The notes under the pieces are model-generated. The model was not told where the DNA came from and did no database searches. It was given only the letters and a program-made list of their open reading frames with translations. Positions 33,583 to 42,066 of a stretch of 64,000 bases of DNA are shown here, piece after piece (position 1 is the stretch's first letter; each line of letters starts with the position of its first letter). The stretch lies in contig NZ_LGTQ01000009.1 of the NCBI RefSeq assembly GCF_001306455.1, forward strand, positions 62,001 through 126,000, read 5' to 3'. The position numbers and the translations under genes are program-made. The DNA comes from Jiulongibacter sediminis. GTDB taxonomy: Bacteria; Bacteroidota; Bacteroidia; Cytophagales; Spirosomataceae.

Positions 33583-33975
33583 TCAAGCCGCTGATTTTTT
33601 TAGCGTTTGTTGATAAGGCAACTGATTTTCCAGACTAAGTTTTTCAATAGCTTCCTCAATTTGATGAAGCCTTTTTTCTTGTTCTCTGAACTGATGAATG
33701 AGAAGTTCTTTTTGATTTCTCAAGGCCTTAAGTCTTTGCCAGTCGGTAGTAAAGAGCATCTCTTTGATTTCATCCAGAGAGAACCCGAGGTTTTTGTAAA
33801 ACAGAATCTTCTGGAGTCGCTTAAACTCAAGTCGACCGTAAATGCGATGTCCCGATTTACTTCTTTCAGACGGTTTGAGCAGACCTTTTTCGTCATAGAT
33901 ATGTAGAGTTCTGACGCTTACTCCTGCCAGATCAGAGAGCTTTTTGACCGAATATTTTGTGATTTTATTTTGCAT
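33583..33975 (-). CDS. MerR-family transcriptional regulator
   Basis: A 130-residue regulator with the winged HTH YSVKKLSDLAGVSVRTLHIYDEKGLL at residues 8-33, the RIYGRLEFKRLQKILFYKNLGFSLDEIKEML dimer-adjacent segment, and a C-terminal coiled coil (residues 85-115). There is no Cys-rich metal site, so it is closer to drug/stress MerR proteins such as TipA-type HTH with a truncated sensor. Located 62 bases downstream of the response regulator on the same strand; possible read-through. Target unknown. Confidence 0.8.
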   Translation of the reverse strand: MQNKITKYSVKKLSDLAGVSVRTLHIYDEKGLLKPSERSKSGHRIYGRLEFKRLQKILFYKNLGFSLDEIKEMLFTTDWQRLKALRNQKELLIHQFREQEKRLHQIEEAIEKLSLENQLPYQQTLKKSAA

Positions 33976-34037: not shown

Positions 34038-34694
34038 TTAAACCCAGCGGTTTCTGCGGGCCAGACTTACTGCTTCCAGCTTTGAGTGTACATGCAGTTT
34101 TTGATAAATATTTTCAATATGCTTTCTTGCCGTTTTGGCCGAGATAAAGAGCTCTTCAGCGATTTGATTATAGGTAAGACCATCGGCTACCTTTTCTAAA
34201 ATCTCTATTTCACGTTTGGTTAGGTTGAAATCTTCCGGTGACTGAGTTGACTCAATTTCTTTCCCTGCAATCTCCTGTTTGCGTAATATTTGCAAGGTTT
34301 TCATGGCTACTGTTGGCGACATAGGAGCCCCACCTTCCATCATTTCTTCTATGGCCGCGATGATTTTAGAAGGCCGTTCATCTTTCATAAGATAGCCTGA
34401 AGCCCCGGCTTTTATAGCCTCAAAAATTTTGTCCTCACGATCCATTACGGTAAGCATCATGATTTTTACCTCGGGATGTTCTTCTTTAATTTTTTGAGTA
34501 GCCTCAATACCATCCATCACCGGCATTTCAATATCCATAAGCAATACTTCTGCCGGAGTATTATTCATTTTAGAAACAGCATCAAGGCCCGAGTTAGCAC
34601 TGAAAATCACTTCAACCTCCTCAAAAATGCTTAGGTTTTGCCTGAGATTTCTGAGTAGTGTGGGGTTGTCGTCTATGATGCCAATTCTTATCAT
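34038..34694 (-). CDS. NarL/LuxR-type response regulator
   Basis: A 218-residue response regulator from ATG 34694 (MIRIGIIDDNP); a frame to 34730 adds 12 unconserved residues. Receiver: Asp8-Asp9 acidic pair, phosphoacceptor Asp54 in LLMDIEMPVMDG, Lys near 105 in YLMKDE. C-terminal LuxR-type HTH: LTKREIEILEKVADGLTYNQIAEELFISAKTARKHIENIYQKL. Cognate kinase is encoded immediately upstream. A dyad with 7-2-7 geometry lies 35 bases before its start codon, and a second nearly identical copy precedes the kinase gene, suggesting autoregulation. Confidence 0.9.
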   Translation of the reverse strand: MIRIGIIDDNPTLLRNLRQNLSIFEEVEVIFSANSGLDAVSKMNNTPAEVLLMDIEMPVMDGIEATQKIKEEHPEVKIMMLTVMDREDKIFEAIKAGASGYLMKDERPSKIIAAIEEMMEGGAPMSPTVAMKTLQILRKQEIAGKEIESTQSPEDFNLTKREIEILEKVADGLTYNQIAEELFISAKTARKHIENIYQKLHVHSKLEAVSLARRNRWV

Positions 34695-34728
34695 GTGTCC
34701 AAAATTGAGATTTTGTAAGCAAGGGTTC

Positions 34729-34748
34729 AATAAGGCAAATGCCCTATT
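34729..34748. promoter_or_regulatory. Dyad 2, kinase-regulator junction (putative operator)
   Basis: AATAAGGCA AA TGCCCTATT, 9-bp arms with one mismatch and a 2-base spacer; the last base overlaps the kinase stop codon. Read on the minus strand it is identical to dyad 1 at 36626-36645 at 18 of 20 positions (only the central pair differs). Geometry fits a NarL-type 7-2-7 site. Confidence 0.55.
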
Positions 34749-36535
34749 TATGTTTTTAAGTTCAAATGTAAAATCACCTCTGTTCCTTGACCTGTTTCAG
34801 ATTTGATAGAAAAATTGCACGGCAATTGGCTGGCTCTTGCCTTCATATTTTCCAGCCCGAAGTGGTTGTCACCATCAATCGATAGAGGGTCAAAGCCGTT
34901 TCCGGTATCCTTGAGATATATACTCAAGCCATCTAAGTTCTCTTTGAAAGTCAGGAATATTTCAGCGGGGCCGGCATGCTTAATGACGTTTTGGGCAGCT
35001 TCCTGAAAAATACGATAGATATCTAAGGCATGAGAGGCATCAATTTCTTTATCCGAAAACTGCCCGTTTATGGTTACCTGATCCGAAAGCTTCAAAAGGT
35101 AATTTTTGATTCTTAAGGCCAGATCATTCGCTGTAATTTTTTCAGAATGGGTAGCCCAGATGGAGTCTCGCAAGCTTTGAATAGCAGACCTTACATTTTC
35201 GCCTAGTTGTTCCAGATTACTTTTTTTAAAGCCCTCTTTTTCTGAAAGATATAATGCTCTGTCAATGCCGGTAGAAACTACGGTCAGTTGTGAGCCTACA
35301 TTATCATGGAGGTCCCGGCTAATTCTTTCTTTCTCTTTATATAGTTGGAGCTCGGCTTCTAAAGCCAAGCGGGTTTGTCTGAGTTTTTCTTTTGACAAAC
35401 GTCTGATTTGTAGAGCAATACCAATAAAAATAAAGAGCACATCAAAAAGAATGCAGGCTAACCGGGTTTTGTAAGATAGCCACTCATAATCGGGTATGAC
35501 GCCTATATTTCTCATGGGAGATAGGAATGAATAGATCAGTAGCGGCGTAAAACCAATCAAAAATATTTTGGCTGAAAAGGGCTGTACTTTAAAGATCAGG
35601 CTGTAGGCTACCAAAGCAAAACAAAAGAAGGTGCCTACCGTAAAACCGCTGTACGGGTAAAACTTTAATATGGCTGGCAGGTCTTTCAGATGGTCGATAT
35701 ATAAATGCTCAAAAGGCAAAAGAGCAAGTGGTACCAAGATCCCAATCAAAGAAAGAGCAATGAGTGTTTTTAGGAATCGTGTTTTTTTTGCCCCTGCCAG
35801 GATAAAGGTATTCACAAAACCAAAAAGCCATAAGACTACCAGATTGTTAAGCATGTTTCGCCAGTTATACGACGAAAAGAGAAGATTATACCGGTGAAAG
35901 TATTCAACTACTGAGCCCTCCGCCAGCAAAGTAGACAGCCAGATGTGAAAAGTGTATAGACTGTAAAAGAGGTAGTACCACTTTCTGTTTATACCAAAGA
36001 GGATTAACGAAAAAAGGATGACACAGGCAAAAATGCCGGTAAAGCCAGCGTAAACTTTATTTTTTGAGGAGACTTCGTTTCTAAACTCTTGAGCCGTGTA
36101 GATTTTAAACGGAGCAGCTAGTTTAAGAAATTTACGATATACCCTCAGGTAGTATGTTCCACCCGATTTTGGTACAGGATACCCGAACTGATAGTGATCT
36201 ATAGGCCTCTCTGAAACCGGTGTGCCATAAAACATTTCCCCAAAATCAATAAGTGTGTCCGGGCCTTTGAAATAGCAATGAATTTCATCGAGAAATGAAT
36301 TCTCAATCAAAATTACCCGATCATCATGGCTGGGGGGAACATCAATTTTTAACCAGTGCCAAACATTATCAAGTCCAAAATCACCATCTGTTTGTTCCTC
36401 AAAATGGCCATTATTTAGAATTTCCGGAAATGAAATCTGACCGGTAGTGTCTCTCAAAAAAAAAGCTTTTTCCTGAGCTTGAGTTTTGAGCAGGCACAAA
36501 ACCGAAAGGGCCAATATGGTTAGAATTTGCCTCAT
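34748..36535 (-). CDS. 7TMR-DISM sensor histidine kinase
   Basis: A 595-residue membrane kinase. Order: signal peptide, periplasmic 7TMR-DISMED2 beta-sandwich (about 25-160), seven membrane helices (about 170-375), HisKA_3 dimerisation domain with phospho-His410 in ERISRDLHDNVGSQL, and a HATPase_c domain ending in FGLENMKARASQLPCNFSIKSETGQGTEV. The periplasmic domain probably binds a carbohydrate or other ligand. It pairs with the NarL-type regulator downstream and is divergent from the LytTR operon. NB: the kinase stop codon sits inside dyad 2. Confidence 0.9.
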   Translation of the reverse strand: MRQILTILALSVLCLLKTQAQEKAFFLRDTTGQISFPEILNNGHFEEQTDGDFGLDNVWHWLKIDVPPSHDDRVILIENSFLDEIHCYFKGPDTLIDFGEMFYGTPVSERPIDHYQFGYPVPKSGGTYYLRVYRKFLKLAAPFKIYTAQEFRNEVSSKNKVYAGFTGIFACVILFSLILFGINRKWYYLFYSLYTFHIWLSTLLAEGSVVEYFHRYNLLFSSYNWRNMLNNLVVLWLFGFVNTFILAGAKKTRFLKTLIALSLIGILVPLALLPFEHLYIDHLKDLPAILKFYPYSGFTVGTFFCFALVAYSLIFKVQPFSAKIFLIGFTPLLIYSFLSPMRNIGVIPDYEWLSYKTRLACILFDVLFIFIGIALQIRRLSKEKLRQTRLALEAELQLYKEKERISRDLHDNVGSQLTVVSTGIDRALYLSEKEGFKKSNLEQLGENVRSAIQSLRDSIWATHSEKITANDLALRIKNYLLKLSDQVTINGQFSDKEIDASHALDIYRIFQEAAQNVIKHAGPAEIFLTFKENLDGLSIYLKDTGNGFDPLSIDGDNHFGLENMKARASQLPCNFSIKSETGQGTEVILHLNLKT

Positions 36536-36625
36536 TATTGTTTACAGAGCGACCTGTTTTGACAGGCTTTTGGGGCTTAATATTTCAAATATAATCAGAA
36601 TATGCTGAGCAGGGCCACGTGCGTA

Positions 36626-36645
36626 AATAGGGCAAATGCCTTATT
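36626..36645. promoter_or_regulatory. Dyad 1, kinase/LytTR divergent region (putative operator)
   Basis: AATAGGGCA AA TGCCTTATT, 9-bp arms with one mismatch, 2-base spacer. It lies 91 bases before the kinase start and 49 bases before the preferred LytTR start. Counterpart of dyad 2; only these two copies were noticed in the window. Confidence 0.6.
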
Positions 36646-36693
36646 GCCACCGGCTTAATTATGAGACAGTTTTGTGGAGTAAACTTTACAGCC

Positions 36694-37035
36694 ATGAAAC
36701 TCAACACCATAAAGTTTGTACGAAATGTAGAATTGCCTCCTTCCGAGGTCATGCTCATCCAGTCGGATGTCAATTACTCAAGGCTTTGGCTGAAGGGCGG
36801 TCGCAAAATCCTGATTGCCAAAACTTTAAAGCAGATGTCGGAGCTGGTGAAAAACGCTCCTTTTGTTCGGGTCAATAAACAGGTGATTCTCAATATCGAG
36901 CATATTGTGGAATACTATCCTGATTTTCCGCATCCCGAGGCTGAACTCAGCAATGGCTTCAGAGTAGAATTTTCACGAAGAAGAGCCCTGTTGGCTCATC
37001 GAAAAATTTCTCTTTTCAATTGCCCAAACCTTTAA
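36694..37035 (+). CDS. Receiver-less LytTR DNA-binding protein
   Basis: A 113-residue protein from ATG 36694 (MKLNTIKFVRNVELPPSE); an upstream ATG at 36661 would add 11 residues and lies only 16 bases from dyad 1. It is essentially a single LytTR DNA-binding domain: IQSDVNYSRLWLKGGRKILIAKTLKQMSELVKNAPFVRVNKQVILNIEHIVEY. No receiver, membrane or sensor part is attached. It begins an operon with two secreted proteins (gap to the next gene only 4 bases). Likely DNA-binding regulator of unknown target. Confidence 0.75.
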   Translation: MKLNTIKFVRNVELPPSEVMLIQSDVNYSRLWLKGGRKILIAKTLKQMSELVKNAPFVRVNKQVILNIEHIVEYYPDFPHPEAELSNGFRVEFSRRRALLAHRKISLFNCPNL

Positions 37036-37039
37036 AACT

Positions 37040-38140
37040 ATGAAAACAAGACTACTTTTTCTTTCGATCATATTATTCATAATTTCCCGGGGACACCTTA
37101 AAGCCGAAACCATTTCTGTGGTCAATGGTGATGACCTTCAGGCTAAAGTAGACAGTGCCTCAGCAGGTGACATTCTGGTGATAAGTGCCGGGCAGTACCT
37201 TCAAACCGTAAAAATTGACAAAAAACTCACACTAATAGGCCCGGGTTATTTCAAGTTGCAGGGTGGTACTGCTTATATAAATTCCATCTGGCTTGATGTT
37301 GGATCTGATGGCTCCATGCTTACAGGTTTGGTGGTTTCCGGTAACCTGAATATTGCCAGTAGTAATAATCTGGTTTCTCGTAATAAAATTGATGGAACTC
37401 TTTATTTGGGATACACAACTATCAATTACGCAACCTCCAACAATAAGGTGGTACAAAATTATTTTGGCTCTCAAAATTCATCCATACCAGGTATTAAAGT
37501 AGGCAGTAGTTCAATTGTCATTCAAACGAATTATCAGATATCTAATAATGTAGTGATGAACAGCATTGGCTTTGCCCATTCCATGTATTCTACGGGTTTA
37601 GTGGTGAATAATATTTTTGACCCAGACAGCACAAACATTGGTAACAGTGCGGGACAATACATCTCCGTTAGTGGTGGAATCAGCAGTGTTTCATTTTATA
37701 ATAACATTTTCAAGGGAGGTTTTTGTCATTCGACCACGACTACGGGTTCTACCATTTTTTCTACCTCTAACCCGCTATATCATCCTTTGAATTTTAAGTA
37801 CAATATCATTGATACCGTTTATGCTGGATACACCATTCCTGTTGATAATTTGGTGACCACCGAACGCATTTTTGCCGGTTACCCGACTATCATCAATGGA
37901 ATGAATAATGCGGATGCAAGAATTCTACTTGACCCCACAGGCCCTGCCGTAGGTTTTGGTCGAAGTTACCCGTACAGTGGCTCTGATCCTACGACCGACG
38001 CTGGGGTTTTTGGAGGCTCCTTGCCATATGTCCTAAGCGGAATACCTATTGGCCCTCAGGTTTATGAAATGGTAGTCCCACCTCTGGCAGCTACCAATAG
38101 CACGATTACTGTCAAAGTAAAAGCCAGATCAAATAACTAG
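37040..38140 (+). CDS. Secreted right-handed beta-helix-like protein
   Basis: A 366-residue exported protein (signal peptide to about residue 22). VNGDDLQAKVDSASAGDILVISAGQYLQTVKIDKKLTLIGPGYF is the standard beginning of pectin-lyase-like right-handed beta-helix proteins, followed by repeats such as SNNLVSRNKIDGTLYLGYTT and NNKVVQNYFGS. No lyase catalytic residues are obvious. It ends in a C-terminal strand region without a recognised sorting signal. Encoded between a LytTR gene and a GCX-ending secreted protein; likely cell-surface adhesion or glycan binding. Confidence 0.7.
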   Translation: MKTRLLFLSIILFIISRGHLKAETISVVNGDDLQAKVDSASAGDILVISAGQYLQTVKIDKKLTLIGPGYFKLQGGTAYINSIWLDVGSDGSMLTGLVVSGNLNIASSNNLVSRNKIDGTLYLGYTTINYATSNNKVVQNYFGSQNSSIPGIKVGSSSIVIQTNYQISNNVVMNSIGFAHSMYSTGLVVNNIFDPDSTNIGNSAGQYISVSGGISSVSFYNNIFKGGFCHSTTTTGSTIFSTSNPLYHPLNFKYNIIDTVYAGYTIPVDNLVTTERIFAGYPTIINGMNNADARILLDPTGPAVGFGRSYPYSGSDPTTDAGVFGGSLPYVLSGIPIGPQVYEMVVPPLAATNSTITVKVKARSNN

Positions 38141-38162: not shown

Positions 38163-40001
38163 ATGAAAAAGGGACTAGTACTATTGGTTTTATGGATGGT
38201 CTTTGCCCAATCTGCAAAGGGACAAATAACGGCTGGAGAATACTTTTGGGATACTGATCCCGGAGTGGGGCAGGGAACAGCCTTGTCTGGTTCTGATCTA
38301 CTTACCGGACAAGCTGATGAAAGTTATGATATCGAAGTAGATGTACCGCTGAGTCCCGGGCTACATCGGGTATATGTCCGCTTTATGGAATCTGATTCTT
38401 CATGGTCTCCTGTTGAAAGTCATGAGATTTTGATAGGGCCTGAGAATCATTTGGCCACATCGGGTTCCGGTATTGATTCGGCTCAGGTGAGGCAATTGGT
38501 TTATTATTGGGATACTCTTCGTACCTCATTATTTACCATTGATATAAACAGCCCTTCCGCCAGTTTTGAGAGTCAAATGGCATTGTCATTAGGCCCACAG
38601 TCCGGTGGTTTGCATACACTTAATTTGGCCGTGAAGGATAAATATGGTCTGTATTCTTCTTTTGAACAATTCCTGATTTTTGTTTCGCCTGAAAATCACC
38701 TTGCAGGTGTAAGCTCTCAAAAAGACTCTATGGAAGTTCGCCAGCTACAGTACTTCTGGAATCAGGACAGTCTCAACGTACAAACTGTAGCATTACCCTC
38801 TTCGGATTCAGGCTTTCGGTTTACCTATCAGTTAGCTCTAAACCTGGCTGCAGAGGGATATAACCAATGGCATTATCGTGTTTCTGACAAACGGGGGATG
38901 TATTCTTCCTGGAGTTCTCAATCTATTTTAGTGATAGGTGCCGTGCCCCAAATTGATAGTGTAAAATATGCTCTTAAGCCCACTCAATATGGCTATGTCA
39001 CACCAGAGAACCTCCTTAGTGTTGATTTTACAACTAATAGTCCGATAGAGTTTGAGTTGATTACAGATTCAACTCATATACAAGCGGAAAACGAAATTGG
39101 AACGGACAGCCTCTCTCATGGCTTTAATGTATTTACACTTCAAGTCAACACCAAACAGCCCGTAGTTTCTTCAATTTCTGATTCTCGAAATTCTGCCTAT
39201 TATCAGGCAATTATAAAGGTGGATAGTACGATAAAATTGGAAACCGGCGAGCCGAGAAATATAGCAGGAGACCTTTCAAATATCTTTTGCCCAGGAGAAC
39301 TCATCAAAATACCTGTCGACACAACGGGTAACTGGCCGGATAGTTCAGAATATGGCATTGCCACGCATTTTTTGGTCAAACTCAAAGATGCGAGCGGATC
39401 AGGGTTTACTGAGATTTTATCTCAGATGAACAATACCGGAGATACTTTAATAGTGACCATTCCGGGTGGTACTTCTACCGGTACGGGATATCAGGTTATA
39501 GTTGAATCAACTTTTCCTTTATTACGGGATACCGTGACTTCAACATTTCAAGTCGGTGCGATTTTGGTCTTGAGCGATCAGCAAGCTCCATCCGGATCTT
39601 CTGTTGACCTTACCGCCTCTGCAGTAACGGTCGGGAGCTCATTGCCAAGCGGAACCACTTTTAGTTATTTTTCAGATTCGTCGGCAACTATACCGGTTTC
39701 AAATCCTACCAGTATTTTGGAGAGCGGGACTTATTATATCAAAGCGACTAGTTCAGCGGGTTGTGAGGTGATTGAATCTGTCAAAGTGATTATTTGTGGA
39801 GGTGTCTTTGACCCAATAACGGCTCCGATAAATTCTGGAATCGTGTCAAACGGTTCTGATCAAAAGATTACGGCAACGAATATTATCAGCGGTAGTGGAA
39901 CAAAAGTAACCTATAACTCTGGTCTTTCGGTGCAGCTGAACCCCGGTTTTAAAGCTGATTCGGGCACAGTATTTCAGGCAGAAATAGGTGGATGTAACTA
40001 G
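38163..40001 (+). CDS. Secreted protein with tandem repeats ending in Gly-Cys-X
   Basis: A 612-residue exported protein; signal peptide to about residue 21. Three tandem copies of a roughly 95-residue module are visible, starting with [14 protein letters not shown], then [15 protein letters not shown] and [15 protein letters not shown], each ending in a [19 protein letters not shown]-like strand and linked by GPENHLA / SPENHLA. A longer Ser/Thr-rich beta region follows. The last 60 residues resemble those of the 1056-residue protein at 6579-9749, and the chain ends at Gly-Gly-Cys-Asn. Secreted and probably anchored or sorted through this ending. Its stop codon overlaps the selD stop. Confidence 0.7.
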
Positions 40002-41056
40002 GCAACCACCTCTACTATTTTATCTCCCTGACTTTTCAAAACACCTATGGGCTCAATAGACTCCTCTAAACCGGCAGCTTTGAGAACATTGATAACCTCT
40101 TCCACTTTTTCAGGATTTACAGAAATTAATAACCCGCCACTGGTTTGCGGATCGGCGAGAACGGCCCATTTCTCATCTGAAATGTCGGCTATTTTATGAC
40201 CATAGCTGGCCCTGTTTCTGTGGGTACCGCCGGGCACAGATTTTTGTGCAATGTAGTCGTGAATGTCGGGTGAGATTAAAGGCACTTTGTTAAAATGAAT
40301 TTCAGCTGAGAGACCAGATCCTTCGGCCATTTCAGTGAGATGGCCTAAAAGACCAAAACCAGTGACATCAGTCATGGCGTGTACGGCGTCCATTTTACCC
40401 AGTTCCTCTCCAACTTTATTGAGAACCATCATTTGGTTGGCAGCCAGGTTTTTATGTTCATGTTTAAGAAGGCCTTTTTTCTCTGCTGTGGTTAGAATGC
40501 CAACTCCCAGGGGTTTTGTCAGAAAAAGGAAGTCCCCGGCCTTTGCATTATTGTTTTGTTTGACATTTTCAATCGGTACAATGCCGTTAACGGCTAACCC
40601 AAAAATGGGTTCGGGTGAGTCAATACTATGCCCTCCCGCCAATGAAATACCTGCTTCAAGACAAATGCTTCTGCTACCGTCAATTACTTTTTGAGCTACT
40701 TCAGGAGCCAGCTTATCAATGGGCCAACCCAATATTGCGATGGCCAGCACAGGCTTTCCACCCATGGCATAAACATCGCTTATAGCATTGCAGGAAGCAA
40801 TTCTTCCAAAATTGAAAGGGTCATCCACAATAGGCATAAAGAAATCGGTGGTTGAGATGAGAGCAGTTCCATTGCCAAGGTCTAAAACGGCGGCATCATC
40901 CCGGGAGTGGTTTCCTACTATCAGGTTTTCATTATTTGGCAGGGCTATATTGCCCTGTAAAATAACATCGAGCACTTTTGGTGAAATTTTGCAGCCACAT
41001 CCTGCCCCATGTGAATATTGAGTGAGTTTAATTTCTTCCATTTTTTGGTTTGTCAT
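39998..41056 (-). CDS. selD: Selenide, water dikinase
   Basis: SelD makes selenophosphate from selenide and ATP. 352 residues, near full-length similarity to the E. coli enzyme. The active-site segment is [14 protein letters not shown] with Cys20 (E. coli Cys17), Cys22 and Lys23, so this is a Cys form and not selenocysteine. Mg/ATP motifs include [29 protein letters not shown] and [13 protein letters not shown]. The ATG at 41056 overlaps the SelU stop (ATGA), which supports that start. The product supplies SelU; no SelA, SelB or SelC is in this window. Confidence 0.95.
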
Positions 41057-42066
41057 TTTAAAAGAAGGTTGGTGTTTTTTTGCATATCCAGCTCTTCTGC
41101 CACAATTTTTACCACCTGGCCTTCATGTTTGTCAAGTGCCTTATCATAGGCTTTGTCATAATAGCTGAGAAGAATGGCGAAGCTCTTATCGATTTCTCCC
41201 TCTACCAGATAATTGATGGCATTTTTGGTATTAAGGCCACCAAGTCTTTTTTTGATTCTCAAAATAGCGTTGACAATCTTTTCGGCAGGTAGTTTTCCAT
41301 AATTATCGACCAAATAAGTTAACCTTTTCTGAAAAGGAACATCCAGAAAATACAGCTTGGCTTGCCTCATTTTTTCTATGAAGTCATTCGGAATATTGCG
41401 GTTGCCAATACGTTGACTCTCGTCTTCAATCCAGATAGGTTTGGTTTTATCCAGCTTTGATAGTTCAAAGGCCAGGAGGTTTTCAAACATTTCCTGGGAT
41501 GGCTGCGGCGGCATATTGATACCTCCAAGTGCTGAACCTTTGTGATTGGCCAGACCTTCAATATCAATCATTTGCTCAGCTCTTGATTGTAGCATTTTCA
41601 GGATTTCTGTTTTACCGCTCCCTGTATAACCACCGACCATTTTTAGCGGATAATCTTGAGTGAATTGTTTCAAAACCCAATTTCGGAAGGCTTTATAACC
41701 TCCATCAAGAGTAACTACCTCAAAGCCATACAGATCAAGAAGCCAGGCAACTCCTCCACTTCGCATTCCACCTCGCCAGCAATGTACCAGCACTTTTTTG
41801 GGTTGGCCTTCCAGTAATTTTTCCACTTCTTCTACCATCTTTCTCATTTTAGGACCGAAATAATCAAGACCAATTTTAATGGCGGTTTCGCGACTTTGCT
41901 GTTTGTAGGCGGTACCTACAACTTTGCGTTCTTCGTCAGAAAAAAGAGGGAAAGTAATGGCTCCCGGGATATGGGCATGGTTATATTCTGAAGGGCTTCG
42001 GACATCAAGTACCAAAGCATTGGGCACGTCTTTCAGAAATTCTTCAACCTGTTTTCGTTCAATCAT
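41053..42066 (-). CDS. mnmH: tRNA 2-selenouridine synthase
   Basis: SelU/MnmH replaces the 2-thio group of wobble uridine in tRNAs with selenium, through a geranylated intermediate. 337 residues: an N-terminal rhodanese domain with catalytic Cys96 in [14 protein letters not shown] and a C-terminal P-loop domain with [11 protein letters not shown] (Walker A, residues 145-153). Start ATG at 42066. Overlaps selD by four bases in the order mnmH-selD, a typical pair when selenium is used for tRNA rather than selenoprotein synthesis. Confidence 0.95.

Follow-up and report, generated by a model that had tools for sequence, protein, structure and literature searches.

Predicted operator and promoter module of a NarL-type response regulator in Jiulongibacter sediminis and its relatives

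A 64,000-nucleotide stretch of the Jiulongibacter sediminis genome (the window) contains a histidine kinase gene flanked by two 20-base dyads, which raises the question of which protein, if any, acts at these dyads and which genes they serve. To our knowledge, operators have been described for only a few of the two-component regulators of Bacteroidota, and Bacteroidota promoters are unlike those of model bacteria. A search of the literature retrieved no description of this operator, of its promoter module or of its targets, although the kind of system is already known.

Genes and dyads of the window

The response regulator gene (34038-34694, minus strand) encodes a NarL/FixJ-type protein of 218 amino acids, in which a receiver domain (Response_reg, 91.1 bits) precedes a GerE helix-turn-helix domain (70.1 bits), both over cut-off, with a canonical putative phosphoacceptor aspartate in the motif DIEMP at residue 54 and the recognition helix TARKHIENIY. 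Its best NCBIfam match was the NarL equivalog NF007935, at 133.1 bits still below the cut-off of 250; the regulator would work like NarL, yet is not NarL proper. The 595-residue histidine kinase (34748-36535, minus strand) combines 7TMR-DISMED2, 7TMR-DISM_7TM, HisKA_3 (40 bits) and HATPase_c (35.5 bits) domains with the H-box RDLHDNVG at residue 407 and the motifs NVIKHA, DTGNGF and GLEN, and both kinase and receiver thereby carry the motifs expected of active forms. A gene for a MerR-family regulator (33583-33975) lies directly downstream of the response regulator on the same strand.

On the plus strand, a LytTR-domain transcription factor without a receiver (36694-37035; 113 amino acids) is followed by genes for proteins of 366 (37040-38140) and 612 (38163-40001) amino acids, the N-termini of which look secreted by eye; the former, a conserved partner of LytTR, has a weak NosD-like match far under cut-off, whilst the latter ends in a GCX_COOH (3-coathanger stack) domain. 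The minus-strand pair after this operon (39998-42066) presumably encodes proteins resembling selenophosphate synthase and tRNA 2-selenouridine synthase. The gene content was as originally described, with starts corrected: the response regulator begins at ATG 34694 rather than at a longer TTG start. The LytTR gene most likely begins at ATG 36694 and not at ATG 36661, because the predicted promoter falls downstream of the latter; its relatives are of 108-111 amino acids.

Both dyads were found at the positions originally given. Dyad 1 (34729-34748, minus strand), the predicted operator of the regulator promoter, is AATAAGGCAAATGCCCTATT on the plus and AATAGGGCATTTGCCTTATT on the minus strand; it reads AATAGGGCA-TT-TGCCTTATT towards the regulator gene, which it precedes as had been claimed, and overlaps the stop codon of the kinase (TAA, 34750-34748) by a single base. 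Dyad 2 (36626-36645, plus strand), the predicted operator of the LytTR operon, is AATAGGGCAAATGCCTTATT and reads AATAGGGCA-AA-TGCCTTATT towards LytTR, within what is also the upstream region of the kinase. Each consists of two inverted heptamers with a two-base spacer (7-2-7). The mirrored arrangement that had drawn attention to them carries no meaning of its own: each site reads identically towards its own promoter, and they look mirrored because the target promoters and genes are divergent.

Perfect matches to the core TANGGCANNTGCCNTA number just two in the whole genome (4,474,039 bases), both of them in the window; the reversed control has none. An intergenic inverted repeat may be a terminator, and the dyads might on that account be a transcription terminator, an RNA hairpin or a repeat element rather than a protein site. 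We regard this as a negligible prospect: two exact copies do not make a repeat family, the third arm position is non-complementary in the window (TAA against TAG halves) and in several orthologues, and the sites precede promoters at a fixed distance, often in tandem.

Relaxed searches of this genome added little. With up to two mismatches, the window alone gave three matches against a chance mean of 1.85, which is about chance, and the wider core TANGKCANNTGMCNTA gave one additional exact genome match, within a long open frame. Relaxed whole-genome searches produced no excess over the reversed control (31 versus 28; 24 versus 34), so a larger regulon cannot be claimed for the J. sediminis genome and, the relaxed matches being close to chance, only the exact form is informative within a single genome. 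We inspected 18 of 22 further relaxed sites, and one from another relaxed search. All but one of these 19 fall within stop-to-stop frames that are 150 or more codons long, and show no -7 box at the usual distance (see below). The exception (L231 1491-1506, C26, in this genome) is a degenerate, poor dyad with TAGTTTTG at the usual distance, preceding a gene that by eye is TonB-dependent-receptor-like; it is a weak lead to a third target, as one such case is about chance by rough estimate. It is conservation among relatives that lifts the dyads above chance.

Conservation among response regulator orthologues

Orthologues of the response regulator (E at most 1e-45) were found in 40 of 222 family genomes. 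The search motif, the 18-mer ATANGKCANNTGMCNTAT, had been widened from the first orthologues, some of them among the genomes later counted, which makes its counts circular to some extent; this affects the reversed control, the spacing of promoters and the held-out set to a lesser degree. This 18-mer was present at 97 places in 51 of the 222 genomes, versus 14 for the reversed control (totals summed from the per-genome table). It occurred in 29 of the 40 genomes with an orthologue, compared to 22 of the 182 others (Fisher p 5e-14, kinship ignored); conversely, 11 orthologue-bearing genomes are without an exact 18-mer and the 22 carry one whilst falling below the orthologue cut-off. These sequences are related, and the genome and site counts are not independent events.

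Of the 23 genomes with a regulator at least 51% identical to that of the window, 19 contain the 18-mer, mostly directly upstream of the regulator gene. In G107, no 18-mer was detected within 1.5 kb of the regulator, and its sites are elsewhere. Three of the four genomes without the 18-mer (G136, G235 and G153) have degraded versions upstream of the regulator; in the fourth, G177, no version of the dyad was found in a 2.2-kb piece. The 7-2-7 geometry is kept in the listed exact and near sites upstream of the orthologues, with the proviso that all site searches used this geometry and cover that spacing alone. Absence of the dyads from orthologous loci had been named beforehand as what would count against an operator, and the operator idea survived this comparison.

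Outside the family, 62 of 80 loci were examined, three of them duplicating family genomes. Of the 48 loci with a regulator at least 43% identical, 11 have a site in the 300 bases upstream that departs from the motif at no more than one position, and 37 have none; no such site was found at any of the 11 loci with a regulator at most 38% identical. Among the held-out gene-facing flanks (L153-L229), TTTG was exactly at offset 26 from the site, as in the family (see below), in 10 of 28; by eye, two more have TTTG one base nearer and six have TTTA at offset 26. Box-bearing loci include Ignavibacteria and Flavobacteriales, with Balneolaceae one base nearer, and several of the held-out targets are T9SS-sorted proteins. 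Conservation outside the family is thus patchy, with what looks like the same architecture where it is present. A contig filed under Candidatus Competibacteraceae (Pseudomonadota; L159) harbours a Bacteroidota-like regulator and an operator-like site, and is perhaps mis-binned.

Promoter geometry and half-site specificity

Fifty-two distinct sites were followed outwards wherever a gene starts within 300 bases, giving 76 flanks; six loci in which the sites were chance-like or had no regulator nearby (L142-L146, L148) were dropped beforehand, and the counts are confined to sites that match the 18-mer perfectly and to flanks in which a gene starts in that range. TTTG was situated exactly at offset 26 after the 20-mer in 34 of the 76 flanks, against a maximum of 6 at any offset in 300 shuffles, and the element at offset 22-29 fits TAnnTTTG. 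Under a relaxed definition (TTTG starting anywhere from offset 25 to 27, or a different base followed by TTG at 26), 51 of the 58 outer flanks whose gene is no more than 90 bases away have the box and seven lack it; 12 of 15 target-gene families contain one or more members with it. Flanks with a gene more than 90 bases away had the box in three of seven cases and lacked it in four, and it was found in none of the 11 flanks facing a second dyad. Such tandem dyads, 34-65 bases apart between divergent regulator and target genes (L113, L114, L115, L039, L119, L120), apparently supply one dyad per promoter.

Both window sites conform to this layout: AATAGGGCA-WW-TGCCTTATTG, then 20 bases, then CARTTTTG, directed towards the regulator and LytTR genes, respectively. 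From the fixed spacing, the predicted -7 elements are CAATTTTG for the regulator promoter (34700-34707, minus strand) and CAGTTTTG for the LytTR-operon promoter (36667-36674, plus strand), both at offset 22-29 after the dyad. The regulator transcript is predicted to begin about one base before the ATG (34694-34700) and would be nearly leaderless. The Bacteroidota primary-sigma promoter has TAnnTTTG at -7, a box that spans -12 to -5 (PMC9723704; PMC7366714), and TTTG at about -33. The window boxes match this -7 box at a fixed distance, except that its first T is missing, and, unlike the TTTG of the Bacteroidota promoter, the -33 element is at best a TTG contributed by the dyad end (TATTG); a missing first T and a poor -33 element would suit activator-dependent promoters.

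On the kinase-facing side of dyad 2 there is no box at the usual distance. A perfect box, TATATTTG (36586-36593, minus strand; offset 33), is a candidate -7 element for a kinase promoter, positioned 11 bases, about one helical turn, past the usual place, and control of the kinase by dyad 2 is for that reason doubtful, if possible. A box-like match at offset 32-34 was seen in four other flanks, all of which contain a second one at 22.

An operator at a fixed distance from the -7 box, overlapping the presumed -33 region, is the arrangement expected of a class II activator promoter, which these promoters would thus appear to be. With the -7 box at -12 to -5, as given for Flavobacterium psychrophilum in a passage of PMC9723704, arithmetic places the dyad centre near -43.5. 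This would be a position from which NarL can activate: in Escherichia coli, passages of PMC4549865 and PMC9314961 place 7-2-7 NarL sites at -40 to -49 (napF), -38 to -47 (yeaR) and, with activation, -44.5 (ogt1052). A position of the activator type is compatible with repression too, and the same regulator at the same operator may mainly repress, or activate only with a partner. A protein bound over the presumed -33 region could block polymerase, and NarL itself represses frdA via a 7-2-7 site (PMC4549865). Repression would not, however, require the dyad and the -7 box to keep a distance that, in 51 of 58 flanks, varies by no more than one base, and at ogt1052 NarL activates from a similarly located site, 32 bp in front of the -10 box (PMC9314961); we consider a chiefly repressing or partner-dependent regulator improbable, and activation by the response regulator the better reading.

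The identity of the binding protein is addressed by the recognition helix, which is T.RKH.ENIY in the window group and T.RKHLEHIY in a branch with TACGTCA sites (seven regulators). Regulators with His in place of Asn go with TACGTCA instead of TACGGCA half-sites in two lineages; in one instance, the relatives of G136 have Asn and GGCA, but G136 itself pairs His with a single TACGTCA half-site. On a tree of 74 regulators the His/Asn label requires three changes, and His together with GTCA arose at least twice. The helix of G015 is cut by the contig end. No clear site was found at the regulator of the third His lineage (G032), and the Asn regulators of genera g22 and g15 have mixed GG and GT half-sites, so the rule relating residue to half-site is one-sided.

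It could also be supposed that the LytTR-domain protein binds the dyads and controls both operons, as one dyad stands directly before its gene and control of the operon that encodes them is common among LytTR proteins. Relatives of the LytTR and secreted-protein operon were found, in the fetched stretches, in five genomes besides the window (G016, G167, G171, G140 and G023), with the dyad before LytTR in each, whilst sites at the regulator promoter occur in many more. The variation of a half-site letter with a response regulator residue also argues against binding by LytTR, and LytTR proteins are known for direct-repeat sites. Binding by LytTR is accordingly very unlikely in our estimation. 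That the NarL-type response regulator is the binder of the 7-2-7 dyads, as first proposed, is favoured by conservation, by co-occurrence of site and regulator and by covariation of residue and half-site; from the latter two we infer that a dimer of the regulator binds each dyad.

Compared with E. coli NarL, the regulator likewise consists of a receiver and a GerE domain and its inverted heptamers, two bases apart, likewise start with TA; its heptamer TA[ACG]G[GT]CA is unlike that of NarL, which is TACYYMT. The window promoter is of the Bacteroidota type (TAnnTTTG), whereas NarL promoters have -35 and -10 elements; its kinase is of the 7TMR-DISM type, whereas the partners of NarL are NarX and NarQ. 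Solved relatives of the regulator by sequence include VraR (5hev, the best) and DevR (3c3w), and the dyad, as a palindrome of 20 bases centred on A/T, is similar to the DosR box. The arm sequence differs from the sites of DosR/DevR-type and VraR/LiaR-type regulators, and the kinases and targets are, as far as known, unlike theirs.

Targets and proposed mechanism

In the window, the targets supported by these comparisons are the regulator gene itself and the LytTR and secreted-protein operon. Control of both had been part of the original prediction and is favoured by conservation, by co-occurrence with the regulator and by the operon site of G023, where the LytTR operon lies 11 kb from the regulator and has retained its dyad. 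The autoregulated two-component circuit that had been proposed stands in part, for the regulator and the LytTR operon, control of the kinase being the doubtful element.

Elsewhere, the site precedes genes resembling, by eye, those of lipoproteins or collagen-like proteins, or genes of large T9SS-sorted proteins; many target genes have no domain match at all. A denitrification regulon, suggested by the likeness to NarL and the NosD-like match, was considered and rejected, as the targets with recognisable domains are mostly secreted proteins and type VI secretion genes, in contrast to the nitrate respiration genes of NarL.

In a branch of the Spirosomataceae, the site stands before FHA-domain and ClpV-like genes, with TssB beside ClpV. 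The TACGTCA version of the operator was seen before type VI secretion genes at L133, L135, L136, L139, L045 and L047 (genomes G085, G114, G119, G122, G005 and G015, respectively), with TssB and TssC close by, and the regulator with this operator is a candidate regulator of the type VI secretion locus. Nine genomes (G005, G015, G085, G090, G094, G107, G114, G119 and G122) have TssC no further than about 5 kb from a listed site; in G181 and G182 it is some 20-50 kb from the site, on the same contig. A search of the 222 family genomes for TssC detected it in 81, mostly without this operator, and did not find it in the J. sediminis genome.

At a probability of roughly 0.87, our reading of the locus is that the dyads serve as operator for the NarL-type response regulator encoded beside them, which would activate its own gene and the LytTR operon via a -7 box. 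The 7TMR-DISM kinase would phosphorylate the adjacent regulator, a dimer of which would bind the 7-2-7 site TA[AG]GGCA-WW-TGCC[TC]TA, overlapping the -33 region and centred near -43.5. So placed, it may aid RNA polymerase with the Bacteroidota primary sigma factor at the CARTTTTG -7 box, the last base of which is 29 beyond the dyad. From dyad 1 the regulator would drive its own gene, a positive feedback whose transcript is predicted to have a leader of about 1 nt; from dyad 2 it would drive the LytTR and secreted-protein operon.

More broadly, we lean, by a small degree, towards regarding dyad and -7 box together as one promoter module, used by an as yet unnamed NarL-type regulator that occurs in Bacteroidota, Ignavibacteriota and Balneolota. 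The module would typically serve the regulator and a few nearby surface-protein or contractile-weapon genes, and in the Spirosomataceae branch with the Asn-to-His change and matching G-to-T sites it may have taken over the TssB/TssC/ClpV locus. Sequence comparison thus leads to proposals for the operator of one regulator family, its promoter geometry, the residue that sets its specificity and its targets. It also provides a specific hypothesis on what may turn on a Spirosomataceae type VI secretion locus, and one on how the operator of a regulator may persist as the genes under its control are replaced.
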